Of a stretch of 64,000 bases of DNA, positions 17,355-42,884 are shown piece after piece. The DNA is from Flammulina velutipes. Taxonomy: Eukaryota; Basidiomycota; Agaricomycetes; Agaricales; Physalacriaceae. The position numbers and the translations under genes were made by a program. The stretch lies in assembly GCA_011800155.1 (NCBI GenBank), contig CM022376.1:930001-994000 (forward strand). The letters run 5' to 3'. The stretch's first letter is position 1. Every line of letters starts with the position of its first letter. A model generated the notes under the pieces. It was not told where the DNA came from, ran no database searches, and saw only the letters and a list, made by a program, of their open reading frames with translations.

Positions 17355-20300
17355 TTACTCCCCTTTCTCGTCGCTCTCCATTAAGCGCTTCGTCTCCTCA
17401 TCCGTCAAAGCTCCCGTGTAGTACCAAGGCAATGATATCCGCTCCCGCGCCAGATATTTCATGACACGTCGCGCCGCTACCGTGTTAGCGAGCCTTGTGC
17501 CAGATAGTTCGCAAAGCTGGTAGGCGCCTCCTTTCGTCCTGAATAGTACCACAAGGGGCCCAAAGTAGCGGGCTTGCATCTTGTCTTGAAGTCCCTTTCG
17601 TCCTTTAGAATTTTCCAGTAGTACGAGATCGCCACGTTTGAAATCGAAATCCACAACTCGGTTTTGGTGCTCCTTCTCCCAACGATTTGCGGCGTCCACT
17701 CTAGACTTCCAAACGTCTTCTTTCAGCTTCTCCATCTCCTTCTCCCTGTTCCATAAATCCATGGCTCTTTGCACGATGACATCACCGTGGGAAACTATAC
17801 CACTGAACGGCGTAGTTAACCAGGTTGCTTGCACAAAGTCCAGAGGTAGCAGAGGTTCCGCTCCTGTCGCAGCTCGGTAGGGGCTCATGTGCATAACACG
17901 GGAGATAGTAACTCTCTCTGCCCACATCATGGCGAATGTCCCTTCTGACCACTTGGATTCGTTTCCTTTGGCTAATTTGAATAGACCCTCCCGAACATCG
18001 TAATGCCTGTTTTCGATGATACCGTTTGCCTGAGAGTTGTAGCCAGAAATCCTGATGTGTTTCACTCCGTATTGTCGAGATAGTCGGTCCATTGCAGCAA
18101 TAAACGCTTGTCCATTATCCGTCACGATTTCCCTAAGCGATCCCCATCGACATATGAGCTCCTCGAATATGAAAGCTGCTAGAGTGTTTTCGTTCTCCTT
18201 CCTGAGCATCCAGAATTCGGGGTACGCCGTTAGAGAACACCTCGCGTGTACGAAGTATTTGAAACCGTTTGAAGGTGGCATGAAAAAGGTGTCGATATAT
18301 GCTTTCGCAAACAAAGGTGCTGGTTCCGCTACGACCGGTGGAATATGCCAGTGCTGCGTGCGTCGCAGCTGACACTCGTGACATGTCGATAGATACCACT
18401 TGATGTCGTTTAACAGTCCCGGCCACCAGAATTGAATCTGTACGGTATGGCGGACTGAGAACGTTCCTTTGTGTCCCAATCTGTCATGCGCCGATCGTAA
18501 AATCCCAAGTCGAGCTGGTGGCTTGACCACTAGTTGATGCTTCCCGTTTTCCATCCTGCGCCACAGGTCACTTTCCCTTCGAAAGAAACCCGTTGCGTAC
18601 TTGATGAACCTCTTCCTCTCCTTCTCTCCCATCCTCTCCGGTATTTCCAATTTATCCAAGAAACGCAGGATTTGCACAAGGCGCTCATCCTGCGCCATAT
18701 GTTTCTTCGACCTGGGAATCTCCGGTGTGGCGTCTGGCTGGATGTTCGGATTTAACTCGTCGTACGAGTAGTCCGGGACTTCCACCAGCTCCCTCAACAG
18801 TACCTCACAAACGGTTGCTTCCGGTTCCACGTGCACCGACGCTATTACCTGAAGGAAACCGTAATGCCTATCCACCCAATCTTTGTCGTCCTCCTCCAAC
18901 TCCTCTCCAGGAAACGGTCGCCGACGAGATAGACCATCTACCCCGTGACGAATCCCCGGAACGTGTACCAGCGTGAAGGTAAATAGCAGGACACCTGCGA
19001 CCCATCGGTTTATTGTGGCGTTCGGGTTCAGATCAGGATTGTTGATCATTCCCTTAATAGCTGTGGCGTCCACTTCTACGACCAGATTCCTAGCTCCGAT
19101 GATGTACATGGATACCGCTTTCAGAGCCCTGTAGAGTCCGTATAACTCCAGTTTTGGCTGACTGTAGTTGGTTTCCCTGGGGTTCAATGCCATAGATCCA
19201 AAACGGTTTGGGTACCGCAAGCGTGCGTCCTCTTCGTCTTCCTGGAAGAGAGCGTAGCCGATCGCGATAACGCTTGAATCTACGCATAGAATTATAGGTG
19301 CGCCCGAGTGGTAGTCCAAAGGGCGCAATGCAGGTGAATTTAGCATCGCAGCTTTCAGCTCGTCCTGCGCCTCCTGTTGTTCTGGTCCCCAATAGAATTC
19401 GGCATCCTTCTTCGTCAAGTCCACTAGAGGCCTAGATAAACCCGCGAAGTTCCATATGAACACCCTCATGAGGCCCACGGTCCCCATGAATGCTCGTACA
19501 TCCGTGAGGTCCCTGCATGGTCCCCAGTTCCTCACCTTCTCCATCTTCGTTTCGTCGGGTTCCCTCCCTGCGTAGGTACACTTGTGTCCAACAAGCATGG
19601 CTTCTGGAACGCAAAGGAAAGCCTTTTTCCCGCTCCAAGTACATCCAATGTACCAAATCCTCTGGACGATCCGTCCGAGTGCCTGAAAATGCTCCCAAAC
19701 GAATCTCCGTATCCCCTCGTTTCCTTCAATCGTCTCGTACCCTCCGTCCTTGGTCTTGTATCTTGTAGGTGGTCCTCGAATACCTGCGTCATCCATAAAA
19801 GGTATTGTGAATTCCGGTATTTCGTCCTGCAATGCGTAGGTGACGTCCCCATGTAAAATGGGTACACTATTCGTCCATCCCATTGGTAGCTTCGTGAGTC
19901 GAAAGGTGCCTAACGGTGTCTGGAAAGTCGTATAATCCCTAGACGGCTGCGCAAGTCCTCTTTGATCGAACGCCACAAAGAGATCCAGAACTCCATAACA
20001 TGCGCGCCCAGCAAATGACTCCGCCAGCGTTTCGACGAACGGTAACATCCCACTATCGCGTATAGTGACCGCGTTCAGAGGCTGTAGGTCGTGTACAATC
20101 CGCAAAGATTTCCCGTCCTTCTTGAGTACCGTGAACCAGCGCGATCGGTAGGAAGAGCTTGATGGCTCGTACGCTCCGGACGCGACCTTCTCCCTAACGA
20201 TGCGAATGACTTCGTCGTATATCCCAGGTGGTATCGGCATGTTCCTATTGACCCAAGGAATATGTTCTGTTATTCCCATGTTTACCGGCGGGAAGAAGTC

Positions 20301-20978
20301 TTCCCGAAAGTGTCCTTTTTCCGTTTCGTCCCAAGCGAATCCTTTTTCGTGTAGCGCCATAAAGTGATGCATCAACTTCCTCTCTTCTGGCCAGAGAAAT
20401 CCCTCGGGATGCAAGTCGTCGATGATCTTTTTCCTTTCCAGAGTGTATCGTCCCCGTGGCTCGAAGTGTGGCGGGCGCACGGGTAGTACGGGTAAGGTTT
20501 CCAGAGGGTTCCCCACGATGTTCCTGACTATCCTGAAGTCCTCTGGTAGAGTGGTGGCGACTGGTTTGATCCTGTTCGCGACCTTTTTGTATTTCTTTCC
20601 TGCAAACACAGCGACCGGCGCTTTCGTATCCAATATCACAGCCATTCCACCCCTCCCATGACTTCGCGCCTTTGGAACTCCCAATGGACGCGATGAGTCG
20701 CTTTTGGTCGGGGTACAAGTGTCCGCGTAGAGTGCCGTAGCCAGAACGAATGCCTTCTGCGCCAATGTTGCTGCGCCATCCGTCTGTACGGCCTCTTCCA
20801 ATACTTCCCCTGTAAATCCTGAAATAGATATTCCGTATCCTGGTATACTTTCCCAATCTTCGAAGGTTTGTGGTCCTTCCAGAAGCTTTCCGATGTGAGG
20901 TGTCCTAGATCCAATGCCGTTCCTGTGTGTAACCGTTATAACAAGCCCTGTTTGTTCATCTTCTTGCATAATCATCAT
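17355..20978 (-). CDS. pol: Ty3/Gypsy Pol: reverse transcriptase, RNase H, integrase
   Basis: A single uninterrupted 1,207-aa frame, ATG at 20978. The RT palm reads LKKDGKSLRIVHDLQPLN, YGVLDLFVAFDQ, LPMGWTNS, and the catalytic IPFMDDAG, where FMDD replaces the usual YxDD. RNase H follows with CVDSSVIAIGYAL (Asp), PKLELYGLYRAL (Glu) and VEVDATAIKG (Asp). The integrase has the HHCC zinc site (AHDRLGHKG ... CHECQ) and the DDE core: YIDTFFMP, IVTDNGQAF and SQANGIIENRHYD. A GPY/F-like module (MQARYFGPLVVLFRTKGGAYQL) ends the protein; no chromodomain is seen. The start overlaps the protease stop by four bases (ATGA), suggesting coupled re-initiation. No frameshift or stop: this Pol looks young. Confidence 0.93.
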   Translation of the reverse strand: MMIMQEDEQTGLVITVTHRNGIGSRTPHIGKLLEGPQTFEDWESIPGYGISISGFTGEVLEEAVQTDGAATLAQKAFVLATALYADTCTPTKSDSSRPLGVPKARSHGRGGMAVILDTKAPVAVFAGKKYKKVANRIKPVATTLPEDFRIVRNIVGNPLETLPVLPVRPPHFEPRGRYTLERKKIIDDLHPEGFLWPEERKLMHHFMALHEKGFAWDETEKGHFREDFFPPVNMGITEHIPWVNRNMPIPPGIYDEVIRIVREKVASGAYEPSSSSYRSRWFTVLKKDGKSLRIVHDLQPLNAVTIRDSGMLPFVETLAESFAGRACYGVLDLFVAFDQRGLAQPSRDYTTFQTPLGTFRLTKLPMGWTNSVPILHGDVTYALQDEIPEFTIPFMDDAGIRGPPTRYKTKDGGYETIEGNEGIRRFVWEHFQALGRIVQRIWYIGCTWSGKKAFLCVPEAMLVGHKCTYAGREPDETKMEKVRNWGPCRDLTDVRAFMGTVGLMRVFIWNFAGLSRPLVDLTKKDAEFYWGPEQQEAQDELKAAMLNSPALRPLDYHSGAPIILCVDSSVIAIGYALFQEDEEDARLRYPNRFGSMALNPRETNYSQPKLELYGLYRALKAVSMYIIGARNLVVEVDATAIKGMINNPDLNPNATINRWVAGVLLFTFTLVHVPGIRHGVDGLSRRRPFPGEELEEDDKDWVDRHYGFLQVIASVHVEPEATVCEVLLRELVEVPDYSYDELNPNIQPDATPEIPRSKKHMAQDERLVQILRFLDKLEIPERMGEKERKRFIKYATGFFRRESDLWRRMENGKHQLVVKPPARLGILRSAHDRLGHKGTFSVRHTVQIQFWWPGLLNDIKWYLSTCHECQLRRTQHWHIPPVVAEPAPLFAKAYIDTFFMPPSNGFKYFVHARCSLTAYPEFWMLRKENENTLAAFIFEELICRWGSLREIVTDNGQAFIAAMDRLSRQYGVKHIRISGYNSQANGIIENRHYDVREGLFKLAKGNESKWSEGTFAMMWAERVTISRVMHMSPYRAATGAEPLLPLDFVQATWLTTPFSGIVSHGDVIVQRAMDLWNREKEMEKLKEDVWKSRVDAANRWEKEHQNRVVDFDFKRGDLVLLENSKGRKGLQDKMQARYFGPLVVLFRTKGGAYQLCELSGTRLANTVAARRVMKYLARERISLPWYYTGALTDEETKRLMESDEKGE

Positions 20979-22224
20979 TGGTCGTGTGTGTTGGCGCGAG
21001 CCGTATGAATATGCGGTGAGTCCAATTCGTGTTCCCGTGGTGCAGAGAATCTCGGTACGCCTTTCTTATGCGTCGGAATTGCTATTGTCCGTTCTGAGTT
21101 AGGGTCCCTGAGAGTAATGGTTTGTTTTCCGTCGATGTAGTTCCTTGTAACACTTTCGGTAAGTACGCCGAAAGGTCGTCCTAGTAGAATGTCGTAGGCG
21201 ACTCCTCGTAGAACGTGGACTTGCAAGAATATCGTAAGGTCGTTTCCGATAGTGAAAGGTACGTTCCGGCAAACCCCCAGTGCAGACTCAACACCTTTGT
21301 TGGCAGACTGGACTTGAATTCTTGTTGAGGTGTCCAATGGCAGTCCGACGTGCTCCCACACTTCTTCTGACATTGCCACTAGTTGCGCCCCTTCGTCCAA
21401 GATTGCTTCCACCTCGTACTTGTGATCGATCACCGGAGTGATCGCGCGTAAAGCCAGACTTTCCGCGCCGACGATCACCCCTTGGTCCGCGAGTGATTGA
21501 TAGAATGCGTCGATCAATTCCCCCGCTTCCACGGATTCCAAGTTTTCTTCTGAGAGCGGTTCCTCGTCATCGTCCTCGATGGCGAGCATTCCCGTTTGCG
21601 CCACATCTTGTAATATCCTTCGGTTTGATACCACTTCCTTGATGCGTTTCCTAATCTCCGGTGCTACGGCCAGTAAGTCTTTGTTCGACAAAGTGGACGA
21701 TCCTCCTAGTATAGTGTCGAAGACCCTATCGCTAGATTCCTTTTCGTTCAGGCCCGGTCCTAATTGGGTACGATATTGTTGATCGTCGGCCCGAAAAGGG
21801 TTCCTTGATCCGATCTGCGGATTTCCTTTTTGCTGAACCTGTTGTGGCTTAGGTGCTGATGGAGCGGCAGTGACGGTAGGCTTCGTCTGCTGCGCTTGTT
21901 TAGGCAAGACGTATCCTGGTGGAAGGTTCGGTCCGGGCGCTGCATCGTGAGCTGCCTTGGGGTCCACCCCAAATGGAGGTTTCTTCCACGTCGTTTTTGG
22001 TATCTCTACTCCTCGAAGTGCCATTCGTTTGCCTGGCGGCATTGGCGGTCCTTTGTAGTTGTTTCCCGGCCCCGTGTTTTCCTTCTGGTTAAGGTTCAAC
22101 GTAGCGTTCCAAAACTGTTCAGGTTGTTCGGTGATAATCTCGTTGCTGAGAAAGGTGGAGGAAGGCGGTATCCTCGATCCTCCTCCCCCTGGTCGAGTCA
22201 CTTCCAGTAGGAAAGCCTTCCCTT
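20975..22224 (-). pseudogene. Retroelement protease half of a split Gag-Pro frame
   Basis: The frame is open from 22224 but has no ATG near its start (the first usable upstream-like codon is GTG at 22201), because the 5' part lies 12.7 kb away at 34,962-36,252. The Pro/Gln-rich N-terminal linker (PGPNLPPGYVLPKQAQQ) leads to an acidic region and then a retropepsin-like domain: VEAILDEGAQLVAMS (flap-side active site DEG where retropepsins have D-T/S-G), EVWEHVGLPLD, and VAYDILLGRPFGVL. DEG variants occur in the mushroom Gypsy protease family. The stop at 20977-20975 overlaps the Pol ATG. Rejoined with gag, the frame would be 847 codons counted from the first open codon at 36252, with no internal stop. 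Confidence 0.85.
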
Positions 22225-22226
22225 CT
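22225..22226 (+). repeat. Target-site duplication CT (left copy)
   Basis: The two bases CT directly precede the left inverted repeat; the partner is 34962-34963. Choosing this pair, and not the alternative AT pair three bases inward, is decided by reading frame: only the CT choice rejoins gag and protease without a stop. Confidence 0.75.
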
Positions 22227-22250
22227 CATCAGGAAAAGCCCTCCTGGCCT
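22227..22250 (+). repeat. Left terminal inverted repeat
   Basis: Starts CATCAGGAAAAGCCCTCCT and continues GGCCT. One mismatch in 24 to the right end. Beyond this the similarity falls off (5 of the next 8). Confidence 0.85.
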
Positions 22251-22254
22251 TAGC

Positions 22255-22985
22255 TAGCCTCAGTTAACCTAGTAAGCCTAGGTTGCTCAGGTTCCGGTTG
22301 ACTTCAGGTAAAGGTTCAGGTCAAGACTTGACCTTAAGTAACTTGAAGAAAGCTTGAATAAATCCCCGATGTACCTAAGTATTGAGACGATACTTTGCTC
22401 TACCTATAGTTCAAGAACAAGAAAGCAATAACCTGAGGTATACAGAAGTATAACTTGTAGAATACTCTAAGTATTGTAATAGCTTGAACCTTGACTCACA
22501 GTATACTTCTGTAGTACCTATATTTAGCGATAGGTCAAGTACTGTCCATAAACTCAACTCTATGTGAACCACAGATCAACGAACAGGGTACGATAGGTAT
22601 ACTCTAGGTACGATCTATCTTTGAACCTTTACAATAGGTCTACCTGTATGATACTCAAAGTATTACCTTATTTGTAGAGTTAACTCAATGTAACTTGTAG
22701 TCAATCATAAGTAATACTCTAGGTTACTCAATCTACAAGACCTTAACATGAAGAAGACTCAGAGTTATCATTAAGAATACTATTGATATACATATGTCAG
22801 AGCTTGATATAGAGTTACACCTACAAGTAGCATGAGAGAAACATAAACCTGTCTTGAAGAAATCATTAAGTATGCTTGAATAAAGCTTCAAGAAGACGAA
22901 GCTACTAAATTATCCTTACAAAACCAGATAAAAATGCGGACAAAATCATGATTATTATTGGAAACTAAAACCCCTAAAGGCTAGC
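22255..22985. repeat. AT-rich left subterminal tract with repeated short motifs
   Basis: About 730 bp much richer in A+T than its surroundings and without open frames. Variants of ATACTCTAAGTA recur at about 22457, 22609, 22655 and 22712; GTATAC(T/A) and AAGTATT recur, and an imperfect duplication of ACTTGAAGAAAGCTTGAATAAA appears at about 22342 and 22853. In CACTA-like elements such subterminal repeats are the transposase binding sites; that role is inferred here. Confidence 0.55.
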
Positions 22986-23090
22986 TATCCATACAAGCAA
23001 ATATAAAAACAAAACCAGATTACTAGTGAGTGTAGATAGACGATATAGTGATGATAGAGTATGCACAGGAGTAAAGACAGAATAAAATGA

Positions 23091-24866
23091 TTAAGAGGAC
23101 GACGACGAGGCAGTAGCACCAACAGCTGCTCGACGAGCCTGAGCAGCTGCTTGGATCTTACTATAATCAATATTGTCATCAGCCACATCGTCCATAGCCT
23201 TCTGAAGAAGCCATTGCTTGTTGGACTGACGGCTGAAAAAGAAGTTAGAAGCAAAACAAATACAAGTAGAAGACGTACACAATGTCTTCAAAGATACCAG
23301 TAGAAACTTCAGTCCAGTAATCCGGAGCTAGCTTTTGGAGCTTATCAATGCGGGCCAGAAAATCCAGATAACTAAAGCAAAAGATATTAGACGGGCTAGT
23401 CAACAAGAAAAAAGACGCACTGGGACGACGACTTATGATTAAAGTCAGCCCGGGAGTGTGTCCCATCTTCCCACTCTGTAAGAACATGGAACGCCTAAAG
23501 GAAGAGATAAGTATCAGTAAAAGACAGAAAGAAGAAGACGTACCATGGTTGAAAGCAAAGCAATAGTGGGCCCGGGAATTTGCTGCACTCCAATGATAGC
23601 ATGAAAGCCAGGAAGATCACTCTTGCCCTGTTGTTCGAAAAGATACCATCGAAGTACCAGGACAAACCACTCAGCCAGGAACTGCTTGTCAGCATCAAAT
23701 GTCTTCGACTTGGACAACATTAGTATATATGTGAATGATAAGAAAAGAAGAGACGAACCTTCATGTCCAAGTTGCCAAAGATGAAGGCCAGTGTACTCTT
23801 CAGCCAGGCGACGTTCGTCTGAATGCTAGCCTTGTCAGTCCCACACGACGTGACCAAAGGATGGATGGCACTCCGAACATGCGTCATCATCCGATACTTG
23901 ATGTCGCCATCCCCGTAATGAATCTACGAAAGAGTTAGAACAAAGAAACATACAAGAGGACAGACTCACAAAGTCCCCAAAGATGTTCATCGATCCAGAC
24001 TCAACACAATTGTTCAAAATGCGAAGAACTGTCTTGACCATGTCCTCTGAGCCCATCTTGGGATCATGAGCAACTTCGGAGATGAGACTCTTGTAGTATT
24101 CAAGGCGGCTTTCGGGGGGAACAAAGGCATTGGCAGTAACGGTCTGACCACGAGCGACGGTCTTCACTTTGGCCATGACACGGGCAGTACGGGGAGTGAA
24201 GTGAGACATCTTGCGCTTGCCCCGAATGTCGTCCGGGTGGGCGGTAAGACCAGGAGGGATTCTCTGCCTCTTCTGCATTGGTGCAGTGGACAGGCCGCCA
24301 GAAGCGACGCGCTTGCGAGGACGAGTGGGAGTGCAGACATCGGCCACATCCTGCAAGAATATTAGTACTGAATCCATCGTGAAGAAACAAAAACGCACCA
24401 GCTCGTCATCAGACTCTAGACCAATATCAAACACGTCCGACGAAGGTGGAAGATCTCCGTTGTAATCCTCATCCTCCACGAAGTGAGGTGGGGAAGAGGC
24501 AATAGGTAATTCAAAGCCAAGGCCGTCGTCGTCGTCATCATCGAGCTCCTGCTGCGAGGGTGCAACAGTACCCGACGGAGGATCAGGAGTCTCACTCTTG
24601 TTACGTCCAGACGGCGAGCCAGAGTCCAACTCAGCATCGGCTTGTTGCTGACTGAGCGCCTTGAGAAGATGAGCCTTGAGCGCCGCAGCACGCATGCGCA
24701 CAGCTAAGCAGAAGAGTTAATGTCTATCATATTAAACACAATAACATAACACACCAGCGTCTTGCTCTGCCTTCTGAGCTTTGGCAGCAGCAGCAGCAGC
24801 AGCCTTCTTGGCCTTGGCCGCAGCAGCAGCAGTTGCAGTTTGAGTATTCTTGCGACGTCCAGACAT
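23091..24866 (-). CDS. Unknown cargo protein, Ala-rich N-terminus, Ser tail (7 or so exons)
   Basis: ATG at 24866 (MSGRRKNTQTATAAAAAKAK). Introns with GT/AG borders lie at about 24754-24705, 24400-24355, 23968-23925, 23760-23715, 23545-23490, 23425-23370 and 23280-23235. The joined protein is about 470 aa. It has an Ala/Lys-rich coiled start, a Gln-rich stretch LLKALSQQQADAELD, an acidic run (ELDDDDDDGLGFELP), then a globular helical part: TARVMAKVKTVARGQ, YYKSLISEVAHDPKMGSED, MTHVRSAIHPLVTSCGTDKA, FLAEWFVLVLRWYLFEQQ, FHAIIGVQQIPGPTIALLS. It ends with a helix and a Ser run. No family is recognised. It is the leftmost cargo gene of the transposon and is convergent with nothing; the TET/JBP gene lies 200 bp upstream on the same strand. 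Confidence 0.55.
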
Positions 24867-25066
24867 AGCGAGGGAGAGTGAGATTATGAGGTGAAAGAGT
24901 GGGGGGAAAGGGAATGAAAGAAAGGGAAAGTTCGAAGAACACCAATATTTAAACAAAGTCAGACAGGGTCTGAGGCGGCCATGACGCCGTGGGGCTAATA
25001 AATGAGGCCAGATTCTCTAATATAATAAGTAAAGAGTGCCAGGGAAATAAATAGGGTCAAGTAGTC

Positions 25067-26692
25067 CTACAGGCAAAGCGGAAAGCATGTATCTAAAAGC
25101 TGAGAGTTTCTCTCCCTTTCAGCAGTGACCTCTTCCTCCTCGAGACCTGGATTGCGGGATAGATGTTGTTGCCAGGCATAGAGGGGAAGGCCACAGCGAT
25201 GCACCCATTCGAACAATCCACCCGCTGAATATGAAGTTGTGGAGAAGCGGGTTTCACCCCTTTGTAGTTCCGTGTTTCCGTGGATAAAGCGTGCGCTAGG
25301 GAAGAAGAATTCGGGGCCAGGAGGGAACTCGAACATGACACCTAGATCCCAAAAGACAACGTGGCCACCCTTCGTGTGGTCGAAATGTCCGAACGCTCTC
25401 AGAGTTCCCCAGCCAAATGAGAAGTCGTTCTCATCTGCGTGAGGAACGCAAACGGTTTGCGGGCCAAAATTAATAGTAGTGGTGGAGAAGGCGCTTTGAG
25501 AGAAGTTCCAATGGAGATCGGGATACTGGCTAGACAGCGCCTCGCGTACGGTCCAATATAGCTTTCTCATACCGGGATTGAATACCTCTAAAGCGACTAA
25601 GACCACCGTTAGTTTGAAATTGCTCTTATATCTATCTGGACTTACTATCAGACTGCCTCGCATCTTCTTGGAAGTCTGCGTCGCCCAAAAGTTTGTTGAG
25701 AACTTGTGTATTCCCGGCGTTGTTCACTACCCGACTTGGTTCCTAATCCTTGAATTAATACGAGGTGGATGTCCAAGAAAATAACTCTCACCCATGTTCC
25801 TCCGCTATGGATGTGTCCGTCTCGAAGTACTCCAAACGACCCTCGTCGCTCTGTCTCAAAGATGGCCTCCCTTCTCGCGCTATCGAGTGAGGCAGTCATA
25901 CGCTCCTGCCTCCCATAGCCTTCCTCTGAGCCGTCACGCTTTCGAAGAAGCATAACGAGTCTCCGATTTCGATCCAAAAAAACATAGGTGGTGTCTCCGT
26001 TGTAGGGAAATGTCTGGAAGTTCCGCTGCTTCAGTTCCTCCACACTAAACGTCCTCCGATCCGTGGGACGCTGGCATCCGCGAAAACCGCTGGGTCCGAC
26101 TGGTAGAGAGGTGATGTCGAAATCTGGCAAGATAATAGGTTGGGCGTTCATGAGATGTTTGAGCCATATATCTCGTAGACCTCGAGGGCGGGATTCAGCT
26201 GCGCGCTTAACCCTCCGTATCTCTTTCTTCTTCTGTTTGCGACGCTGTTGCTCCTTTTCGCTGTCGTGTCGCTTGCGTTTTCGCGTGCGCGTCTTCGAAG
26301 GAGGGGCGAGCTGTGGGGCCGATGGGGTCTTCTGCTGTAAAACCAATGGAGACGGGATGGGAAGTGTGACTGGGATTGAAGTGGAGATCAAGTTGTCAAG
26401 AGAGGTGGATTGCGCTCGAGAATGTGCAGATGGTGGATATGTGGGAAGGGTCTTTTTTCTCCGGCGCGTAGATGGCGAGCGCAGTAACGTAGTTGTTGCA
26501 GTGGGACGCGATTTTGGATGGTTGCGCTGCACTGTAAACTTGGAGGTGTTCGGTGGCGGTGACTGTTCACGGTCAGAAATATTGCCCTCGTCGCTATCAC
26601 TTGCTCCTGACAATTCATCTAGCGCGCCACCAAAGAGCTCTTCAATCAGAGCCGCGCGCTCATGCGTGTTCCACGTAGTGACCAGGAACTAA
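25067..26692 (-). CDS. TET/JBP-like 2-oxoglutarate/Fe(II) dioxygenase (transposon cargo)
   Basis: The first seen exon starts after a CTTAG acceptor at 26692 (WNTHERAALIEELFGGALDELS); an upstream coding start was not located. A long basic, Ser/Pro-rich region has a nuclear-type signal (KTRTRKRKRHDSEKEQQRR). The core begins near DTTYVFLDRNRRLVMLL. The catalytic part is in the last exon: VPHADENDFSFGW (the HxD iron ligands), FDHTKGGHVVFWDLGV, FEFPPGPEFFFPSARFIHGN (distal His) and GETRFSTTSYSAGGLFEWV (the Arg that binds 2-oxoglutarate). This pattern is that of fungal TET/JBP proteins, which oxidise 5-methylcytosine or related bases in DNA. Intron 2 (about 25640-25590) joins well. The junction at about 25800-25740 does not keep frame with canonical sites, so a frameshift or an unusual site is possible there. 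Confidence 0.82.
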
Positions 26693-27472
26693 GATCAGGT
26701 GAGCAGAGAGAGCCAGTAGGTAAAAAAACTATTCCAAAAAGCACGGAGGTTGGCCACCAGCAACGGTAGCCATCCTCAACATGTTCAGAACCCCCAGTGA
26801 GTTGTGAGAGGCCGGCCACCAGCGACGGCGGCCATCCTCAACACCCCACACTGAAGTTCATTACGGAGGCCGGCCACCAACGATGGTGGCCATCCTCTAC
26901 GCGTTGAAGGAGATACGAAACCAAATCAATAGACTATGCGCACCTTTTCGGACATTGACGCGTCGATATCGCGTCTGGTACTTCTCCTCGCGTGTTTATC
27001 GTGTCCAATGGTTGCAGGAGCTGTTAGCGCGGGGCCCGACAGCAAGATAGATCTCTCAGTCACTATTAGCGCGGGGCCAACAGTGTCTGGAGAGAAAACG
27101 AGTGACTAGCGCGGGGCCCTGTCACTGGTTTCGACGATGTTTGAAGAAGCGAAGATAGAGAGCATGGGTGATGGTGGACGTTGAGGACAGACAGTGTAGG
27201 ACAAATATTGACAAACTGGTGATCCTTGATCACGTGTGTACGGCACTTCGCGTATCTGCTCATTTATTGTCAGGAATAAAGTTATATACATTGTACGGTG
27301 TTCTAGCTGATATACAAAAAGAAGATACATAAAGAAAATCAATGCGACAAGAACGAAAGAAGAAACAGGACAATACACGCTTGCACAACGATCCACCCGC
27401 TTCATCACTCATCTTTCCGCCCAATTCGTCACTCATCTCGTGGTGTGCTGCATTGTTTTCACCCCCGAACCT
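26693..27472. promoter_or_regulatory. Region 5' of the dioxygenase gene with two sets of GC-rich repeats
   Basis: Three copies of a roughly 35-bp unit (core GGCCACCAGCGACGGCGGCC and ...CATCCTCAAC) lie at 26745-26780, 26807-26842 and 26865-26900, about 60 bp apart. Three copies of TTAGCGCGGGGCCC lie at 27024, 27066 and 27106, about 42 bp apart. Both sets are CpG-rich and part-palindromic (GGCCGGCC, GGGGCCC). They sit between the dioxygenase and the next cargo gene, so they may be protein-binding or modification sites; this is inference. No other gene is seen. Confidence 0.5.
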
Positions 27473-29744
27473 CTATTTCTGCTCTTCAAGCTGGCGAGGA
27501 AGCGTTGGCGGCCGTGCAAAGACCTTGTAGAACGTCCTGATGTAGTGACGCCCTACATCTTTGGTGAAATTGACGATCTCCTCTGCAAAGACTGTGCTAA
27601 TGCCCTGGAGCTTCTTCGTCTGCTCATCCAGAACCACCGGCAAAGTAGCGCTACCGCCCCAGCCCCGCATCACAGTTACCAGCTCGCAAAGAGCCGTCTT
27701 GCGCTCAGTAGCGCTTGGAGCAGCAAACCCTCGAGACAAAAAAAGGTCGTCCTCTACAACGACACTACCGTTGAAGTGCGAGATCGTGTTGAGCACCACC
27801 ATGCGCCTCTCCGACGCTGACGCATCATGTCCTTTGGGGTCGAAGACAAAAGCGTCCAAAAGGACAAGCTCTGAGCGGAAATTAAGTTCGTACATCTCCC
27901 ACAGCATTTCCCGGCAAACAGATTTCGAGGGAAGGGAGCCATCGTCGACGAGGATGGTGCCGTTGCGCCATGAGGCTTGAACGTTTCGGAGATTTGAGAT
28001 ATCCATGGAGACCTAGTTAATACATGAGAAAAAGCTGGCTAGACAAAGCGGGAACCCTCACCTCCAAATTAGCATCAGCCATGCTCTTATTCAGAGAGTC
28101 AACAGCAGAGGCGCGCTTGCGAGCAGCCCGCCCTGCTTTCTTGTTGGATGCCAGGACACCTATCCCTAAGACGGTGCGCCAAATTTGAGGATGTAAGTTT
28201 TTGACGCCAACTCGAGGGTCATTGACGGAATCCAGCCGGTAGTGTATGAGAGGGCGAAGACGAGCATAGTTCAGAAATGCGCCAGCCTGGGTGCTCTCCT
28301 TCTCCATAATGGCAAAAATAAAGCCGTCCGGTGCTGCATAGTGACTGTGTTGAACAGAGACACCAGGAAAGGTGGGCTTATCGTGGTTGCTGGCAGCGAG
28401 AACAGCCTTTTCTTCGGCTAGGATGGCCATCCAATAGTCCACAGCTTGTGGCATGATGGGGCTCTCAACGTCGAGCCAGCGATCTCGGTCAGTCAATATA
28501 GGCGGGCTGGACGAACGTATCTTCTTTGCTGATTGTCGGTTGTGTTGGGGGTCTGGTGAGCGGGTACGTTTTCTGGAAGATTCTGGTTAAAAATGTCAGT
28601 GATTGGTATAAATGGTGAGGATATACTTACGGGAGGAAGAGACTGTCAAAGATTGGGGGAGACGAACAAGCAAGTGGGAGGAAGAACCTGGGTGGGAGAC
28701 GGAAGAAGAACTTGGCTGGGAGACGGGAAGCTGAGATCGCGTTGTTGTCTCTCGGATTGAAATGTTGCGCTGCAGCACCTTGGACATCACAGCATAACGA
28801 GCTGGATCGCCTGCGTCTCCTGTCCAGAGAACCTCTGCACCGGGAGCAGGTGTCAACGAGAAGAGCCCGTCTTCACTGCCGGGAGCCCCCATCTGCTCAG
28901 AACGGACGGGAATGGTGGTCGCTTGGAGAAGCGCTTGGACTTCGGAGTCGGTAAAATAGTGTTTATACATGTATGGGCGGGCAGCGGAGGCATCGAAGAC
29001 AAACCAAACGGGCAGGCCAACGTAAAAACATTCCAGTGCAGTAGTCATATTGGTTGTGATGCAGCCGGCGCGAGAGGAGTCGACGGGAAGGGGTTTGTCG
29101 GGGAGATTTCTGAGTCGAGGAAGGAAGATTGTGATGAAATCCAAATACGCTGAGAGGTTCAAGTGCAAGCGCTGCACGTTAACCCAACGAAAGACACATT
29201 CATCGAAGGACGCAGGGCGACGAACTAGGCGGTGATACAACGAAAGGTACCAAATATCGCGCTTGGTCTTTTCGTTGTCCAAATACTCGTGCTTGATGGG
29301 GCCAGATTTTCCCGCTGCGTCGTCTGTCGCTCGTTTGAACCTCCTCACGAGTTCCCGGCCATGCTCGACAAGCATGCCTGTGATAACCTCATTCAACACC
29401 CCCATACCAGTGAAGGCTTGAACACTGGGTGACGGAACCCAGTCGGACATGGAGACACGGCGGAACAGGAGGTGGTCAAGTCCATCCACGGTGGAAGCTC
29501 GCATAGCGACAAGATACTGCGAGGAGCGATGGTATGGTTGAGGATGGGCAATGGGATCATGGAATCCAAAACGAAAATCTTCATTGAGAATAATAGATGC
29601 GGGCTGGTCGATGAGGGGACGATACATAACATCCGCGTTGGGTGTCGAGACTGCAATGTCTCCAAATGTAGCACCAATGCGCCCATCAGTCCGTAGAGTA
29701 CCAATGTCAGGCCAAGTCGGCGGAGCCTTTTGAATGCTATTCAT
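27473..29744 (-). CDS. Large unknown cargo protein (mushroom-specific family)
   Basis: ATG at 29744 (MNSIQKAPPTWPD). Exon 1 runs to about 28627, a GTAAGT...ACCAG intron leads to SSRKRTRSPDPQHNRQSAKK, and a GTGAGG...ACTAG intron at about 28060-28018 leads to VSMDISNLRNVQASWRNGT; stop at 27473. The protein is about 720 aa. Distinct segments are ADVMYRPLIDQPASIILNE, IWYLSLYHRLVRRPASFDEC, VNVQRLHLNLSAYLDFIT, TALECFYVGLPVWFVFDAS, then a Ser-rich basic linker and a C-terminal domain (MPQAVDYWMAILAEE, PDGFIFAIMEKE, NLRNVQASWRNGTILVDDG). This layout recurs in Agaricomycetes as an unknown family; the reaction, if any, is unknown. Here it is carried between the dioxygenase and the transposase. Confidence 0.6.
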
Positions 29745-31027
29745 TGATTCTAAGAGACATAAGTATATTCACCAGTGGGATATGGATTACGCACCGATAG
29801 AACAGATGAAACACGCTAACAGAGCTGAGAATCAACGACACGACAGATAGACAGACGGCACGACGAATGGATGGACGATTTGAAGAACAGATGGATCGAT
29901 GGACAGTGCGAGTGCAGGAAGCAGTGTTCAGCAGCAAACAAACGCTTCGGGAGCGTATGCACCGACTACTTCGGGAGTAGACAGCGGCTGGCTTGAGACA
30001 CAATGTGAACGCTGCGGGAGCGTCCAACTGATGTCGCTGTAGATGGTTGTGAACAAGGCGCAGTATCCCGACTCCCAATAATTTGTGCACTGCCACTACC
30101 CCGGTTCGATCCTCCTGCCTCTTCCGGTCATGCTCGACACGACTAGTTCAACGATGTGAGTACTCATTCTCTTCCAATGGAGGGATATAGACTCACTTAT
30201 ATATCTAGTGCCAATCTCTGGAAACAGCAGCTTATTGGTGGTGCATTGGACCCGTTCCTGCACTGTCATGCACGTTGGACTCGTTCCTGTGCGCGCCACT
30301 TTGACATCCCATATTCCCGCAATAAGGAGATGTGGAAGTGGCATACTATTGGCCTACGATGGACGCTCTCCCCTGCCGTGGGAGGCACCGCTTGACGACT
30401 GGACGCCATTTCTCAAGCCCCCCTCTATCTGTCTCAGCACGTACGCCTATTCTATCGCACATTGACGTCTGTTTTCTCATTTCACCAATAGAACTCAAGT
30501 TTATGGCTGGCATGGAGCGCCAGCTCCTCTACTTCTCAGCATCGCAACATACGCAGCGCAACGGGAACATCTTCGCATACCCCTATCCATTCGTTCCAAC
30601 GTTGCCGCCCCACCGTTGGCCAACACCGTCCTATACGGACGGCTAGTCGCTCTTAGCGACTTGGTCCAACGGTGTGTCTCCCTTTTGTTGTGGATCGTAA
30701 CGACTTCTCATTCATAGTCTATTCAGCCATACAACGCCTAACGATATTCCGGAGGCGATGCAACCAGATATGTTTTAGGGTTCTTTTCTAGGATAGTAAA
30801 TGGTAAGTTTCCTCTTCTTCCGCTGCTCCATTTGCCCCTACGTTCCATTTCGAATGCCTGCTCAAACGATCCTCACAGATGACCCGTGTATCCAAATCAA
30901 TCCATCGAGCATCACCAGGCCATCGATAATCAGCGAGTCTGGTTGCCTTATCATAGATGTACATACCGTCAATATCATTCCCTTCTTACCCCCAATCTTT
31001 TGCCCGACTACTCCCAAATACGCCAAC
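29745..31027. other. Inter-gene spacer inside the transposon
   Basis: Divergent spacer between the unknown cargo gene and the Plavaka gene. It includes short repeats around 29935-30030 (CTTCGGGAG, TACTTCGGGAG, GCTGCGGGAGC) and a GACAGATGGAT-like run near 29840-29905. A small possible gene is listed separately at 30130-30395. Confidence 0.4.
30130..30395 (+). CDS. Possible small gene, unknown
   Basis: ATG at 30130 (MLDTTSST). A GTGAGT donor at about 30156 and a TCTAG acceptor at about 30210 lead to NLWKQQLIGGALDPFLHCH and MWKWHTIGLRWTLSPAVGG, stop at 30395. Trp-rich, about 70 aa. Downstream sequence to 30645 has further short open frames but no joinable model. Coding status is doubtful. Confidence 0.25.
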
Positions 31028-34000
31028 ATGTCGGCTCAAAGTACTGGTTTCCGCTGTGAAAACCCCATGTGCACGATCTCATTTGCGACCTACGGCCATA
31101 TGCGCAGCCATCTGAAGCAGGCGGCGTCCTGTAAATGGTGGCCTAGCCACGCGAAGGAGGCAGCTACCAAACTCAGTGCACCACTGGCGCCAACTATTGT
31201 ATCGGGATCCATCCGCGATATGACTACTTCATTCTGGGAGGATGGGGACGACTTGTGGATCGACAATGAGGATGAAGACGACGACGCAATGGGAGAAGAA
31301 GACGACGACGACGAGGAGGAGGAAGAGGAGGAGGTTGAAGAAGAGGATGGTCGTGTGGATAATGTTTCTGGTCCGTCTCCTGAGCTCCTGCGGGACCTCA
31401 TGGAAATGAACGATCCAGAGGATTTCTACGACGTCGTTCATCCGAATGTTGCTGTTGGAGAGGCAGGCCCGGGTCCCTCGACGTTACGAGCTCGCTTAAA
31501 CCGCATGTTGGGCGCTCGTCTGCGTCACTTAGATGACGGGGAGGAAAATAATGACGAAGAAGACGGGCGGGTATACGATGAACATCCCAAGGGTGGCGCT
31601 GTTATCAAAATGGCTCGTACGCTACACGAGCGTTGGGCAGCTCTTTTTGGAAGGACACCGACACCGTCAACCATTGACGCGAAGATGGACGGCAGCGGCG
31701 AGCATGATCTGGGGGACTTCAATATCTACCATCCGTTCGCTTCTAAGCTGGACTGGGAGATCGCCCAATGGATGGTGGAGGACGGTATAGGTCATAGCTC
31801 CTTTAATCGACTCCTGAACATTGACGGGGTGTGTTCTATCATTGCTTTTATATTTTTCACAGTGCTGATGTGTGATTCAGGTAAAGCAAAAGTTAGGCCT
31901 ATCCTACTCTAACACGAAGGGTCTTCACGAAAACCTCGAACGAATCCCGCGGCGGGCGGGGACATGGCACACAAAACACATCACCTTTCCCGACCGTCCA
32001 GACGATCCTTTTACCCTCCGTCATCGCGATCTACTAGAGGCGATCCGGAGCCTGTGGGGGGATCCGAAACTTGCGAAATATCTCGTGTACAAACCCCGCA
32101 AGCTCTTCACAAACCAGGATCGCAAGACACGTATTATCAACGAAATGTGGACCGCTGAGTGGTGGTGGAAGGTCCAGGTAAGTCTTATGACTGTCAGCTA
32201 GCGCATTAAACTGAGTTCTTGCAGGATCTACTACCACATACACACACACTGGCCGCCCTCATCGTTTCCACAGATAAGACTCAATTAACCCAATTCTCCG
32301 GCGGGAAACAAGCGTATCCAGTGTATCTTACGCTGGGAAATATACCAAGTTATCTACGCCGTAAGCCCTCCGAGCAGGCGTGCATTCTGATTGGTTATCT
32401 ACCTGTTGAAAAGGTTACTCCTGGTGACCTCTCCAAGACCGAAGTATCTGCCCGTTACCGTCGCCTGTTCCACGCTGCCATGGCCGTCCTCTTCGAGCCA
32501 CTCAAGGATGCTGGTATCCACGGTGTTGAGATGACCAGCGGGGATGGGGTCGTCCGAATGGTACATCCCGTCCTTGCCGCCTATGTGGCGGACTACCCAG
32601 AGCAGTGTTTAGTGACCTGCTCCAAGTACGGAACCTGTCCGAAGTGCTGGGCGGGCGCCACTGAGCTTGACGATGATACCAGATTCAAAAATCGAACCCC
32701 GAAAACTACCTTGGACGCAATGGCGGAGGCTAAAGCTTCGACCTCTTCCCGGACTGCCTATATCAAGGCTTGCAACGCGAGGAACGTCAACGGCACCGTA
32801 CCGAACCCATTTTGGGATGGACTTCCCTACACCAATATCCACCTATCGCAAACGCCAGACGTTTTACACCAACTCTACCAAGGTGTACTTAAACACTTAC
32901 TGGAGTGGTGCCAAACCCTCATGACGGAGCAGGAGCTTGACCGTCGCATTCGTTGTCTTCCTCTTGCGATTGGTGTTCGTCACTTCAAGAATGGGATCAG
33001 TGCACTTTCCCAGATCAGCGGCTCCGAACGAAAGAACATGGGCAAAATCTTGTTAGGTTGCATTGCGGATGAGCTTGACAGCCGCGCTGTGACCGCGTGT
33101 CGAGCTATTCTAGACTTTATTTATCTGGCTCAATATCCAACACACGACGACGAAACTCTCGGCTACATGGACACCGCACTCGAGACTTGGCGCCATAACA
33201 AGAGCTACTTCACTGATGTTGGCGTCCGAGACCACTTCAATATACCCAAGTTCCATTCCCTTGTGCACTACGTGGAGATGATACGTCTTTTCGGTACTAC
33301 GAACAACTACAACACGGAAATGTTTGAACGACTTCACATCGACTTCTCGAAGAAAGGTTGGCGCGCCTCCAACAAGCGGGATGAATTCCCTCAGATGACG
33401 GAGTGGATTACTCGAAAAGAGAGTGTTCATGGGTTCCAAACCTACCTCCAATGGGTCGCTAAGCAGCGAGGTAAGTTTTAGTAGGTTTGAGTGTCCAAAT
33501 GCTGAAGATGTGTGCAGCGCCGAAACCCACAGTGCCGAAGCCCGCGTCTGTGCCTACTCCGTCTCTTATAGCTGCTTCTTCCTCAAACGACCCATCTGTT
33601 CCACTGCCACCCGTGCCCGTTACGCTGCCACCCGCGCCCGTTCCATTGCCACCCGCGTCCGTTCCATTGCCATCCGCGCCCGTTACGCTGCCACCCGCGT
33701 CCGTTCCATTGCCTCCCGCGCCCGTTACGCTGCCGCCTACAGAGGTGCCACCGACTGCAGAGAAAGATACGGAGACGATTCGGAGCCAAGCATCTAAAGA
33801 ATACCAGTCTATCACGCTTCGAAAAATTCCCAGCGCTCCCCAAAAGCTGCTTGGAATGATTGCTCGAGAACACAATGTTCCAGACTTCGCCACCCATCTC
33901 CGTGACTACATCAATGGCATTGAACAGCTTTTTGCTGCATCGCCTCTCGTCTACGATCCCCTTCCCTTCAAGCGCATTGACGTCTTTCACTCTTTCAAGT

Positions 34001-34553
34001 TCAGCCGTGAAGGCCTTCTGGACGATACACTAGAGCGGGACTGGGTTCGGGCTTCACCAGTCGATGGTGGGCGCTTTGATACCGTGGTAGTCCTCACGGG
34101 AGATGAAGCTGAGTCAACAGGATTGGATGGTAGGCAAATGTTTTTCATTTTGAGTACTTCTTCTCACTGGATTCAGGCACTCGGATCGGGCGCATACATG
34201 TTATATTCAAGGTACCAAGCACAATTCGACTCAAGGGCGACAATATACCGACACCATCGTACTGGCCAAAAGCTCCGCTGGCTTATGTTGAATGGTTCAC
34301 AAAGCCAAAGCTAACGCCCCGTGCCGCCAAAATTCACAACATGCCATCGGTTTCAAAGGATATCCGTAACGGGAAGCCCGTTTGGTCTATCATACCACTC
34401 GGTAATATTCGCCAATCTTGTATGCTGTTTCCTGACTTCGGTAAGACGGCGTCGAATGTGTGGGATACCAACGAACCAATTTTAGATACTTGTACACATT
34501 TTCTTATCAATAACTGGCAGAGTCTTTACACATATCAGACATTATATATATAG
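31028..34553 (+). CDS. Plavaka transposase
   Basis: ATG at 31028. Residues 1-35 hold a C2H2-like finger (FRCENPMCTISFATYGHMRSHLK), followed by a long acidic run (about 31258-31360). Exon 1 ends LLNIDG; exon 2 (31881-32175) and exon 3 (32225-33470) give the Plavaka core: KLGLSYSNTKGLHENLE, WKVQDLLPHTHTLAAL, IVSTDKTQLTQFSGGKQAYP, LGNIPSYLRRKPS, KCWAGATEL, PDVLHQLYQGVLKHLLEW, IPKFHSLVHYVEMIRLFG and TEMFERLHIDFSKKGWRASN. A Pro-rich repeat linker and a C-terminal RIGRIHVIFKVP ... LAYVEWFTKPKL module complete it. All splice phases agree and there is no stop, so the enzyme looks intact. Plavaka is a DDE-type transposase family of mushrooms related to CACTA enzymes. It is the only transposase within the element and so its likely mover. 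Confidence 0.9.
33605..33740 (+). repeat. 24-bp coding minisatellite (Pro-rich linker of the transposase)
   Basis: About five to six imperfect 24-bp units of the type CCCGTTACGCTGCCACCCGC / CCCGTTCCATTGCCACCCGC encode V(T/P)LPPA(P/S) repeats. The unit is a multiple of three, so copy number can vary without loss of frame. Confidence 0.7.
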
Positions 34554-34937
34554 CTAACTCGTCTATGATATTCCTACTTACAATAATGATTCTATTAACC
34601 AAGATATGAGAGTCAACTCTAAGCTTCAACTTCAAGGGTACTGAGGTCTCTGTGTCTTGCAATACTAACCAGAGGTGATTTGAGGCATACCAAGGTCAAT
34701 GAAAGGGTAAGAGGTAGCTTAGTGACACTTTAGGTCTGCATAGGCTGATTGAGATAATGATGCAGACTTATGGATATCCTAGACAGACTTGGGTCAGACG
34801 GAGGAAAGTCCCCAACTTATGGTTTATCTCGGTATACTATAAGATACCTGAGTTTCCAAGGCTTGTTGAGTCAATTAGGTTAATCACAGACTACTTAAGG
34901 TTGAGCATTGTTGAATAATAACACCTCCTGCTACCCG
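34554..34937. repeat. AT-rich right subterminal tract
   Basis: About 380 bp, A+T-rich, no gene. Shares short motifs with the left tract in inverted orientation: for example the plus-strand GTATACTATAAGATACCTGAG near 34831 compares with CCTGAGGTATACAGAAGTATA near 22432. Likely the right-hand transposase-binding zone. Confidence 0.5.
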
Positions 34938-34961
34938 AGGCTAGGAGGGCTTTTCCTGATG
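34938..34961 (-). repeat. Right terminal inverted repeat
   Basis: On the minus strand it begins CATCAGGAAAAGCCCTCCT, then AGCCT; 23 of 24 identical to the left end. It is read through as the false C-terminus of Gag (after GQP). Confidence 0.85.
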
Positions 34962-34963
34962 CT
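34962..34963 (+). repeat. Target-site duplication CT (right copy)
   Basis: Directly follows the right inverted repeat and matches 22225-22226. Confidence 0.75.
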
Positions 34964-36252
34964 GGTTGTCCCGTTGGTTTGAGATGCGGATTTTTCAGGT
35001 TCCACTGCACGATACGGTCGTACAGCGATCCTTCTCCCCTTGGGAAGTCCCTGGATCCGTCCCATAACGTGGTCCTTCCACCTGGAGAGATCAAGACTAC
35101 TTTGTCTTCGACCGCTTTCCGATGTACTGGACAAACGTTCCAGCTCCTGCATTCGGTTCCTCCGCAGAAACATCTAGGTTGGAACTGATTTCGCCTGGTT
35201 GATTCCTCGAACCTTTGCGTACTCGTGGATTTCACGTTTCCGCCATTCGCTTGTGGGTTCCTTTGTGGTTGTGGTCCTTGAGCGTTACCTGGTCCATTCT
35301 TGTTCTGTCCCGTCGATACTCCTTGTAGAGTCAGCGCTTGTAGTACCGCTTGTACCACAGCCGCTGGTTCAAATCCTTCGATTTTGACGCTATGTTCTTT
35401 TACGCCCGCTTTCTGGTTGGCGATAAACGTAGAGGTGCCAGTGAGACAGAACTCAGATGCTGATATGAGGTCGGCGAGCTTATGAGGCCTAGTTGGAGGA
35501 TGGTCTGGGAATTTGATTTCCAAGCGCCTCTTAACCATTCCTTTCAAGGCTTCTCCCAAGCCGCGCTCGAACAGGCGCGCGAGCTCGGGGTCCGAAACCG
35601 CACTCTCTTCCTTGAGAGCTAACCCAATCCTCTCGAATGTCCGCGTATATTCTCCTAGGGTGTGTAGGTCCTGAGGTGGCGCCAGATGGCACTGATCCGA
35701 TGCGTCCTGTAAGTCCGATAATTCGTATCGTCCTTTCTCCCTTGCTCCTGGGTACTTGTTGAGCACCGCCTGTACGAAGGCGTCCCATGTTGCCTTGGTT
35801 ATGACTCCTAGTGCGGATGTCACATCCTTTGCTTCTGGGATACGGCGCCAGTACTCTCGTGCTTCTGCTGGTAGATAGTACAGGGCGTACTGGATCCAGT
35901 CCGCGTCGTCCTTCTTCCCATGTTCCACACAAAGGTTTTTCACGTCTTCAAGGTAGTCCATCAGGTCTTTCGGATTTTCCGTAAAGGAGGGGGCACTTTT
36001 GTTTCCCCTTCCCGGCATCGTTTTGTTAGACATGTTGGGTGTAGGTGTATTGTTGGTTGGTGGGTTGGTAGGTGTATTGGTAGGCGCGGGGTTGTCTCCT
36101 CGGCCTTGGTTTCTGGCTTGATGCGCCAGGAATGGATTTGTAGGTGGAATTGTTGTTCCAGGTGGTCTCGCGGTTGTGGGTACCGTGAAGTCGAAGGGTT
36201 GTAAGGTGAGGGCAGTAAAGTCGATGTCCAAATCTTCTTGTACAGGAGTCAA
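34962..36252 (-). pseudogene. gag: Gypsy Gag half of the split Gag-Pro frame
   Basis: The frame is open from a TAG near 36375 but has no ATG before 36033 (MSNKTMPGRGNK), which is probably the start; the upstream part is Pro/Thr-rich. The capsid-like region is ENPKDLMDYLEDVKNLC, DWIQYALYYLPAEAREYWRR, ATWDAFVQAVLNKYPGAREK, then FERIGLALKEE and LARLFERGLGEALKGMVKRR, as in retrotransposon Gag proteins. The cysteine site is CFCGGTECRSWNVCPVHR. The true frame is lost at the transposon junction; the apparent tail down to 34891 is transposon sequence. On the minus strand it lies upstream of the protease fragment, as expected for one element. Confidence 0.85.
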
Positions 36253-36377
36253 CGGGTTTACTGGCTCTCCTCTGTCCTCGGGGTCTTCGGTTGTACGAAC
36301 TTTCTTCGCGAATCTACCGCTGCTCTCTCTCGGCCTCTTTCCTCCAGCCAGAGTCCGACCCTCGGTTGATTCCTAGA

Positions 36378-37250
36378 CTCCTTTGTCTCGCGACGACAAG
36401 GAAAGTGTTCGGAAGAACAAATGGGATCCTTGTTGTAGTATCCCCTCGCGGTGGGCTCCAGATATAGATCTCTTAACGAGTCTGAGTTCGTTGTGATGTT
36501 GAGGGGACTACCCGGTGGATTCCTGCTCTTGTTCTGGCGCACCGAGGTCGCAGACCTTGGTAGGTGAAGAAGTCGGGCGGCGAGCTGTCGCAGATGACGG
36601 TGGCACTTCCAAGTACGTGTTCGTCGAAGTACTAACACGTGCGCGAAAGTATAGGTTCCAAAAGTCTCTCGACAGTTGCAAGGGGCTTCTGTGTTGATAT
36701 TGTGGGGTGATAATTCTATATATGTGTTTCTACGACATGCTACAGTATTTATACTGTACGCTGTCGGCTTTCTCTTCCGTCTAGTTCTACGCTTAGGCCT
36801 CTCGATGCCTGCGTCATGTACCCTGATCGAGCGATCGTGCGACGATCCGGGGTTTGAGTCCGTGATGTGATTGGTGTTCCGTCGCGTCGAGTCAGACCAC
36901 CTCGCGATATGACTCTTCGAGGGTGGTAATTCTCTCCGTTCCTGTCGGCTTTGGCATCCAGATTCCCGAAGGTGCCTGGGCGCCATGCATGGCGCACAGC
37001 CTTGGTGTAATCTCTTCCCATCGATCTGGATCTTCTCGTTATCGATCGTTGCAATCCATCGATTAGTTCGGTAGCTTCCGTGTTCTGAAACGTCCATGCT
37101 TGTGCCGTGTGAAGTGCTGCGCCATATGTTCCTAATGCGGACGCGCCGTGGATGGCGCGTTCACACGTTCCGACCTATATGGCGCTGGCGCCGTCGTGCG
37201 CCACACCCATGTTTAGTATCAGTTCTGCACTCAGCCCAAGTGCAGGCTGT
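36378..37250 (-). promoter_or_regulatory. Leader/probable 5' LTR zone of the Gypsy element
   Basis: Non-coding sequence upstream of gag. A TATA-type box, TATAAATA, lies on the minus strand at 36753-36746 inside a near-palindrome (ACAGTATAAATACTGT). The right limit is set by the point where hAT-transposase homology stops (about 37250). A matching copy on the 3' side (16.2-17.35 kb) was not found, so LTR ends are not defined. GGCGCC-type palindromes cluster at 36980-37205. Confidence 0.4.
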
Positions 37251-42715: not shown

Positions 42716-42884
42716 ATTATTGAGCACGTATGGTGACTGTGATTCCCGTGTATGAGTATGTACCACTGTGCCATATCGTCGCGAACAAAGAAAGGAATCG
42801 CCCGGCACCGCCCATTGCGGCGTTAATGATGATTTGGGACAAGATCAACTTGCTTTTAACTTTCATCACAGTCCATATCTGCAA

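Follow-up and report, generated by a model that had tools for sequence, protein, structure and literature searches.

In 2014, Iyer et al. reportedly found that TET/JBP genes of basidiomycetes have Plavaka transposase genes nearby. Kojima has since described PlavakaB elements that carry such genes, crediting the 2014 work with implying the link (Kojima 2025; PMC12730594); in the part of that text covered here, PlavakaB termini are given as 5'-CATCA..TGATG-3', target duplications as 2 or 3 bp, and a single TET type, PE, marked by HxE, is listed with Plavaka. The Plavaka elements of Marasmius oreades are defined by PF18759 and have a characterized terminal inverted repeat (TIR) motif (PMC8290104, text covered). 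Elements of the KDZ (Kyakuja/Zisupton) class, whose transposase is unrelated to that of Plavaka, carry AG-type, CcTet-like TETs. Transposon-encoded TET/JBP enzymes are functionally uncharacterised so far, according to the part of a 2026 review covered (PMC13297926). Here, we analyzed a 64-kb stretch of the Flammulina velutipes genome (the window, C9:930001-994000) within a searched genome of 38.1 Mb in 23 contigs. Positions 22227 to 34961 of the window are a cut-and-paste transposon that is complete and apparently intact, bears PlavakaB termini, and has as its established cargo the gene for a TET-like DNA oxygenase.

Transposons of this kind are already known. The window element shares a Plavaka transposase, CATCA..TGATG termini, a 2-bp duplication, and a TET/JBP gene inside the TIRs with those of Agaricus bisporus and Gymnopus confluens (PMC12730594, in part). 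It also has the PF18759 transposase and TIRs of the M. oreades elements, for which, unlike here, the text covered mentions no TET cargo (PMC8290104). As cited in the portion of Kojima covered (PMC12730594), Iyer et al. described the same proximity of Plavaka transposase and TET/JBP genes in basidiomycetes without complete element borders, whereas the present element is bordered. A preliminary description of this locus had presented Plavaka as a new class of TET carrier, which these two studies, as far as the text of Kojima covered shows (PMC12730594), do not support; our literature search on transposon cargo returned nothing more on this subject than Kojima 2025 (PMC12730594). Apparently new, as judged against the covered text of Kojima 2025 and our literature searches, is an HxD enzyme with a predicted conventional 5-methylcytosine (5mC)-type pocket in Plavaka, adding a TET type to those carriers (PMC12730594). 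The acquisition of TET at least twice within one Plavaka clade, the CpG-poor ends of the TET-bearing elements examined, and DUF6532 as a likely core gene of Plavaka, a family now linked to Plavaka in this genome, also appear to be new.

The borders are given by the TIRs, the target site duplication (TSD), and an empty paralogous site (Table 1). The two TIRs form the best inverted pair in the region of these genes, with matches at 28 of 32 positions; shuffles of the same zones (n = 20) reached at most 22. At C6, a second copy of the flanking Gypsy retrotransposon is continuous across the junction; when the window flanks are joined through a single CT, they agree with this copy at 237 of 238 positions, indicating that the element inserted into Gypsy with a 2-bp CT duplication. 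The termini (CATCAGG..CCTGATG) agree with the PlavakaB signature, 5'-CATCA..TGATG-3', and 2-bp duplications, as in PlavakaB, flank the window element, seven further TIR-bounded TET-bearing elements (eight in all), and three complete TET-less elements of 6.4 to 6.8 kb each. The inverted repeat at 22227/34930 was rejected as part of the flanking Gypsy, since other copies of the element are bounded by the same termini and the C6 Gypsy is continuous without them. Nested insertion of TET alone was also rejected: between positions 20000 and 40000, only the two ends score above 15/21 against the terminal motif. Ownership of the window TET by KDZ fails as well, the nearest of the KDZ matches listed being 19 kb from TET and beyond the TIRs.

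The preliminary description had proposed that the oxygenase is Plavaka cargo, and the seven further TIR-bounded elements, which belong to the same clade, do keep the gene. Neither gene-less copies with the gene beside KDZ ends nor nested TIRs were found, and the three TET-less elements fall outside the clade. Its placement of the enzyme inside TIRs is also correct, but the interval that it gave (25067 to 34553) spans only open frames: the TIRs lie farther out, and the DUF6532 gene was missed. The TET-like frame pair (25067 to 26688) and the Plavaka transposase (30800 to 34553) that it named are both real, with splicing that leaves no stop and with PF18759 above cut-off. This domain is found in two exons of the transposase gene (1.4e-19 and 2.2e-82; 70.9 and 277.3 bits against a cut-off of 26.3), the N-terminus is C2H2-like with a score below the Pfam cut-off, and the CMCT motif set (D, D, C(2)C, H(3-4)H, E; Kojima 2025) is complete. 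Over 17 copies, the set departs from this pattern where the partial copy C1b is gapped at both D positions, where S replaces one Cys, and where Y replaces one His. Gene C matches no Pfam family above cut-off.

The HxD, distal His, and Arg attributed to a TET/JBP-like enzyme are present in exon 4 of the window gene as H52 and D54, H105, and the 2-oxoglutarate (2OG)-binding R116. In the ungapped rows of alignment A3, H52, D54, and H105 are each conserved in 76 of 76 and R116 in 74 of 75. The nearest named relatives of the protein are from Cylindrobasidium torrendii. In a fold model of a homologue, 324 of 562 residues have a predicted local distance difference test (pLDDT) score of ≥90, and a fold search with this model placed CcTet, NgTet1, TET2, and CMD1 above every other family (best 50 rows). 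The modeled homologue fold is thus predicted to be a TET-type oxygenase domain, a double-stranded beta-helix closest to solved TET enzymes. A first structure prediction, with seven sequences, had reached a mean pLDDT of 37, and PDB sequence searches with the TET protein and two profiles returned no TET.

Across the genome, HxD is found in 28 of 29 TET copies and HxN in one; the PE-type HxE was not found among them. Counted from this His, position +5 is Asp or Asn and position +11 is Gly or Cys in all 29, and all 29 lack the AG-type marks (Gly/Ser at CcTet position 331, Asp at 337). The Plavaka carriers in the covered text of Kojima (PMC12730594) are of the PE type with HxE, whereas all 14 Plavaka-associated copies here are HxD with Asp or Asn at His+5. 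Likewise, CcTet has Gly331 and Asp337 (PMC11040006, in part), in contrast to the Asp/Asn and Gly/Cys of the present enzymes. With Asp/Asn at His+5 and Tyr at Arg+6 in its pocket, the enzyme is predicted to be of the conventional 5mC kind and unlike CcTet, which acts on 5mC and N6-methyladenine; a literature search on the TET2 pocket found no paper.

We compared trees of the transposase and the TET domain. In the transposase tree (17 rows), 14 copies share one branch (100/100), 13 of them TET-linked, and three TET-less copies lie outside. The 14th copy, C21:85k, is labeled TET-less in the tree; a TET belonging to the matching subclade, 30 kb away, is counted among the 14 Plavaka-associated TETs. 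In the TET-domain tree (31 rows; the truncated C11:110k was left out, and C1:2452k, C8:581k, C5:154k, and C8:236k were not included), 12 of these 14 and three C. torrendii proteins form a cluster (90/87, moderate). The two trees disagree for one pair, C5:242k and C5:2023k. The transposases of this pair are sisters (97/97) inside the TET-bearing branch, their TETs fall in a different TET clade (100/98) with non-Plavaka copies, and in both the TET is on the transposase strand, not opposite. A single Plavaka-TET clade was rejected (approximately unbiased [AU] test, P = 0.0016; P = 0.0026 with the C. torrendii proteins), and the transposase data did not reject the carriers other than the C5 pair as one clade (P = 0.11). 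Together, these tests argue that TET was acquired at least twice in one Plavaka clade, independently or by replacement; the source would be one family of HxD TET genes in the same genome. The capture by Plavaka that the preliminary description had suggested is thereby supported.

The gene arrangement recurs at other genome sites and so is not a chance one. Searches (tblastn) with the window exons found DUF6532(-), TET(-), C(-), and transposase(+), in this order, at C8:955-970k, C8:2609-2622k, and C1:2939-2953k and, split by inserted DNA, at C12:1772-1804k; C1:1249-1261k and the interrupted C1:1265-1291k bring the window-type set to seven, including the window. Where their end stretches were compared, the two shorter elements without gene C are 93% identical. 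C1:2940k yielded just its transposase-side end, C2:378k and C5:242k yielded no end pair, and the pair at C6:2816378/2837818 has no matching target duplication. DUF6532 has 11 matches in 10 places, 9 of which, including the three TET-less elements, are within 2 to 9 kb of a Plavaka transposase; the tenth (C8:553k) has no such neighbor. DUF6532 and the transposase, transcribed divergently on either side of TET and gene C, thus look like a core pair. In the literature covered, one paper lists the DUF6532 family beside Plavaka and KDZ. Of the 37 places listed for the large gene C family, 12 have a listed Plavaka transposase within 15 kb; seven of these are the window element family. Others, at C15, C21, and C22, have DUF6532 and no TET match nearby; these three look alike. 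One genome therefore holds a graded series: DUF6532 and transposase only, with gene C added, with TET added, and with both. Given this series and the two separate TET acquisitions, the benefit of a demethylase cargo would be directly testable between siblings with and without TET in one nucleus.

Table 1. Features of the TET-bearing Plavaka element in the window and related elements elsewhere in the genome (window positions unless a contig is given).
Feature	Position	Strand	Basis or TSD
Complete TET-bearing Plavaka element (12,735 bp)	22227..34961	+	TIRs, 2-bp TSD, empty paralogous site, sister copies with same termini
Left TIR, starts CATCAGG	22227..22258	+	Inverted-pair search
Right TIR, terminates TCCTGATG	34930..34961	-	Inverted-pair search
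TSD CT, left copy	22225..22226	.	Single CT in C6 empty site
TSD CT, right copy	34962..34963	.	Single CT in C6 empty site
Gypsy retrotransposon half (pol), flanks the insertion	17355..22226	-	C6 Gypsy copy
Second half of host Gypsy (gag side)	34962..37160	-	C6 Gypsy copy
DUF6532 gene, 478 aa spliced, likely core Plavaka gene	23091..24866	-	PF20149 2.4e-17 after splicing
TET-like 2OG/Fe(II) oxygenase gene, 511 aa	25067..26955	-	GT-AG splicing without stop, fold search, catalytic residues
TET exons	26944-26955 (12 nt, guess), 25792-26688, 25646-25742, 25067-25596	-	Splicing
Gene C, 724 aa spliced	27473..29744	-	Relatives adjoin other Plavaka transposases
Plavaka transposase gene, start codon assumed	31028..34553	+	PF18759 in two exons, spliced frame without stop
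26-bp repeat, three copies, in TET intron 1	26752..26897	+	Found in 2-4 copies per element in the six examined, including the window
TET-bearing element	C1:1248662-1260998		TIRs + TSD GT
TET-bearing element	C8:955501-969640		TIRs + TSD GG
TET-bearing element	C8:2609078-2622022		TIRs + TSD TA
TET-bearing element	C12:1771615-1803674		TIRs + TSD TA
TET-bearing element, interrupted	C1:1265389-1291293		TIRs + TSD TA
Shorter TET-bearing element without gene C	C12:1437644-1447250		TSD TA
Shorter TET-bearing element without gene C	C6:1717k		TSD CG
TET-less complete Plavaka element	C10:1340465-1347203		TSD TG
TET-less complete Plavaka element	C3:3124066-3130475		TSD CA
TET-less complete Plavaka element	C8:848591-855433		TSD TA

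Linkage was quantified over 33 TET loci (62 matches collapsed; C8:151k, with an N-terminal match only, excluded). For eight of the 33, a Plavaka transposase is found no more than 8 kb away (0.7 expected; maximum of 4 over 1000 draws). At least 12 of the 33 lie within 15 kb of KDZ among the KDZ matches listed (4.6 expected; at most 10 in the draws); these TET-like genes are of the same family. In another comparison, 2 of 31 sources, C5:1004k and C10:2267k, gave no match. Near the left edge of the window, a KDZ transposase (5810-6604; C9:935810) has a copy of equal score at C9:912533, with a TET-like gene (C9:924134) between the two.

Codon comparison shows that the TET-like oxygenase is under purifying selection. 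Between the window and C1:1249k, the two catalytic exons of TET have ratios of nonsynonymous to synonymous substitution rates (dN/dS) of 0.066 and 0.076, its N-terminal part has 0.39, and two exons of gene C have 0.13 and 0.17. Median values over usable pairs are 0.069 and 0.086 for TET, 0.039 for the transposase, and 0.17 for the DUF6532 exon; silent sites are saturated, leaving 17 of 21 TET exon 4 pairs unusable. The window element and C1:1248662-1260998 form a mosaic, with 95 to 99% identity in the first (left) 2.75 kb (DUF6532), ∼90% at the TET 3' end, and mostly 63 to 88% past it, lower in four bins. The elements thus seem to swap blocks, which would provide a route for moving TET genes.

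The genome has DNA methylase matches above cut-off at four loci. Four low-CpG stretches elsewhere (selected for low CpG; one is an insertion inside the C1:2.95M copy) have a CpG observed/expected ratio (o/e) of 0.25 to 0.31 with TpG and CpA at 1.23 to 1.37, the mark of 5mC decay. The element body has a CpG o/e of 0.92, on which repeat-induced point mutation or CpG decay of the element was rejected. In contrast to the body, the two element ends are low in CpG: when the window is scanned in 1275 overlapping 250-bp stretches, the 13 lowest lie there. All 12 ends (500 bp) of six TET-bearing elements are at 0.20 to 0.57 (pooled 0.34; not 12 independent cases, since the window element and C1:1249k have near-identical left ends), compared to 0.80 to 1.24 (1.05) for TET-less Plavaka ends (n = 6). 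TpG/CpA is 0.90/0.88 at the left TET-bearing ends (no gain) and 1.10/1.11 at the right (slight gain); decay therefore does not explain the left ends. The lowest CpG of the 64-kb window is at 22200-22950 and 34450-34961.

Taken as a whole, the locus is probably best explained as an intact PlavakaB-type element whose TET cargo oxidizes 5mC to relieve silencing. The enzyme would oxidize 5mC on the element, perhaps also around its target; host methylation-based silencing would then be relieved, and the element would stay transcribed and mobile. Relief of silencing by TET is the likeliest explanation of the cargo, although the indirect signs are mixed, and several results weigh against it. PF12851, the only Pfam family found for the TET protein, scores 17.8 bits against a cut-off of 34.9 (among relatives, 13 of 80 match at E 0.01, and 4 of 105 are listed with PF12851), so the fold search with the homologue model is the basis for TET identity, and that model is of the Cylindrobasidium homologue, not of the window protein. 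The TET and transposase trees conflict for the C5 pair, and borders have not been established for the TET-bearing copies C2:378k, C5:242k, and C5:2023k or for the left end of C1:2940k. TET-less Plavaka loci with their flanks have a CpG o/e of 0.94 to 1.00, indicating that CpG is retained independently of TET. The left end of the C3 TET-less element is CpG-poor over 250 bp (0.37), and AT-rich DNA of this genome is generally CpG-poor (0.65 at a GC content of 0.36 to 0.40; 15 stretches), so composition accounts for part of the low CpG at the ends.

It is possible, if doubtful, that the element has a two-part defense against host methylation, in which a conventional TET would protect the CpG-rich genes and the ends would avoid CpG. 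The transposase sites at such ends would then offer little to methylate, repeated acquisition would mean that TET was favored, and TET-less Plavaka elements would be without both defenses, save for one CpG-poor 250-bp end. It is unlikely that the enzyme instead acts in transposition, with oxidized or hypermodified bases at the ends or target guiding the transposase. The low CpG of TET-bearing relative to TET-less ends and the TpG/CpA values there would suit such a role, as would the Asp at His+5, which also occurs in CMD1, the maker of a different modified base. However, CpG-poor ends would leave few CpG substrates near the TIRs, and Pfam recognizes no partner modification enzyme among the element genes.

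That the TET gene is an idle passenger, captured by chance and carried without benefit, its conservation reflecting recent common ancestry of the copies, appears improbable. Related HxD TET genes do lie far from any listed transposase, and the family decays elsewhere, with D changed to N in one and R to H in two of 15 other copies; against this, the catalytic set is kept in 14 of 14 Plavaka-associated copies, dN/dS is ∼0.07 in the catalytic exons though silent sites are saturated in most pairs, and TET was acquired at least twice. That the oxygenase serves the host, the transposon having merely dispersed a host gene family, is no more probable: this genome has numerous TET-like genes (33 loci listed), which lie near either of two transposon classes or near neither, but only three proteins of another species join the 12 clustered Plavaka-associated TETs, and in TIR-bounded TET-bearing elements the gene sits between DUF6532 and the transposase.

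Some smaller features were also observed. The 26-bp repeats in TET intron 1 are spaced by ∼60 bp, are partly dyad, and have no further match in the window; they are a possible regulator-binding array. At 33574-33762, 21-bp tandem repeats encode a proline-rich stretch in the C-terminal part of the transposase. Outside the element, an open frame at 54413-55618 has a short match (37 residues) to RNA-dependent RNA polymerase (PF05183), an RNA-silencing enzyme family, and two MYND-finger frames lie on opposite strands at 42756-44327 and 45335-46756.
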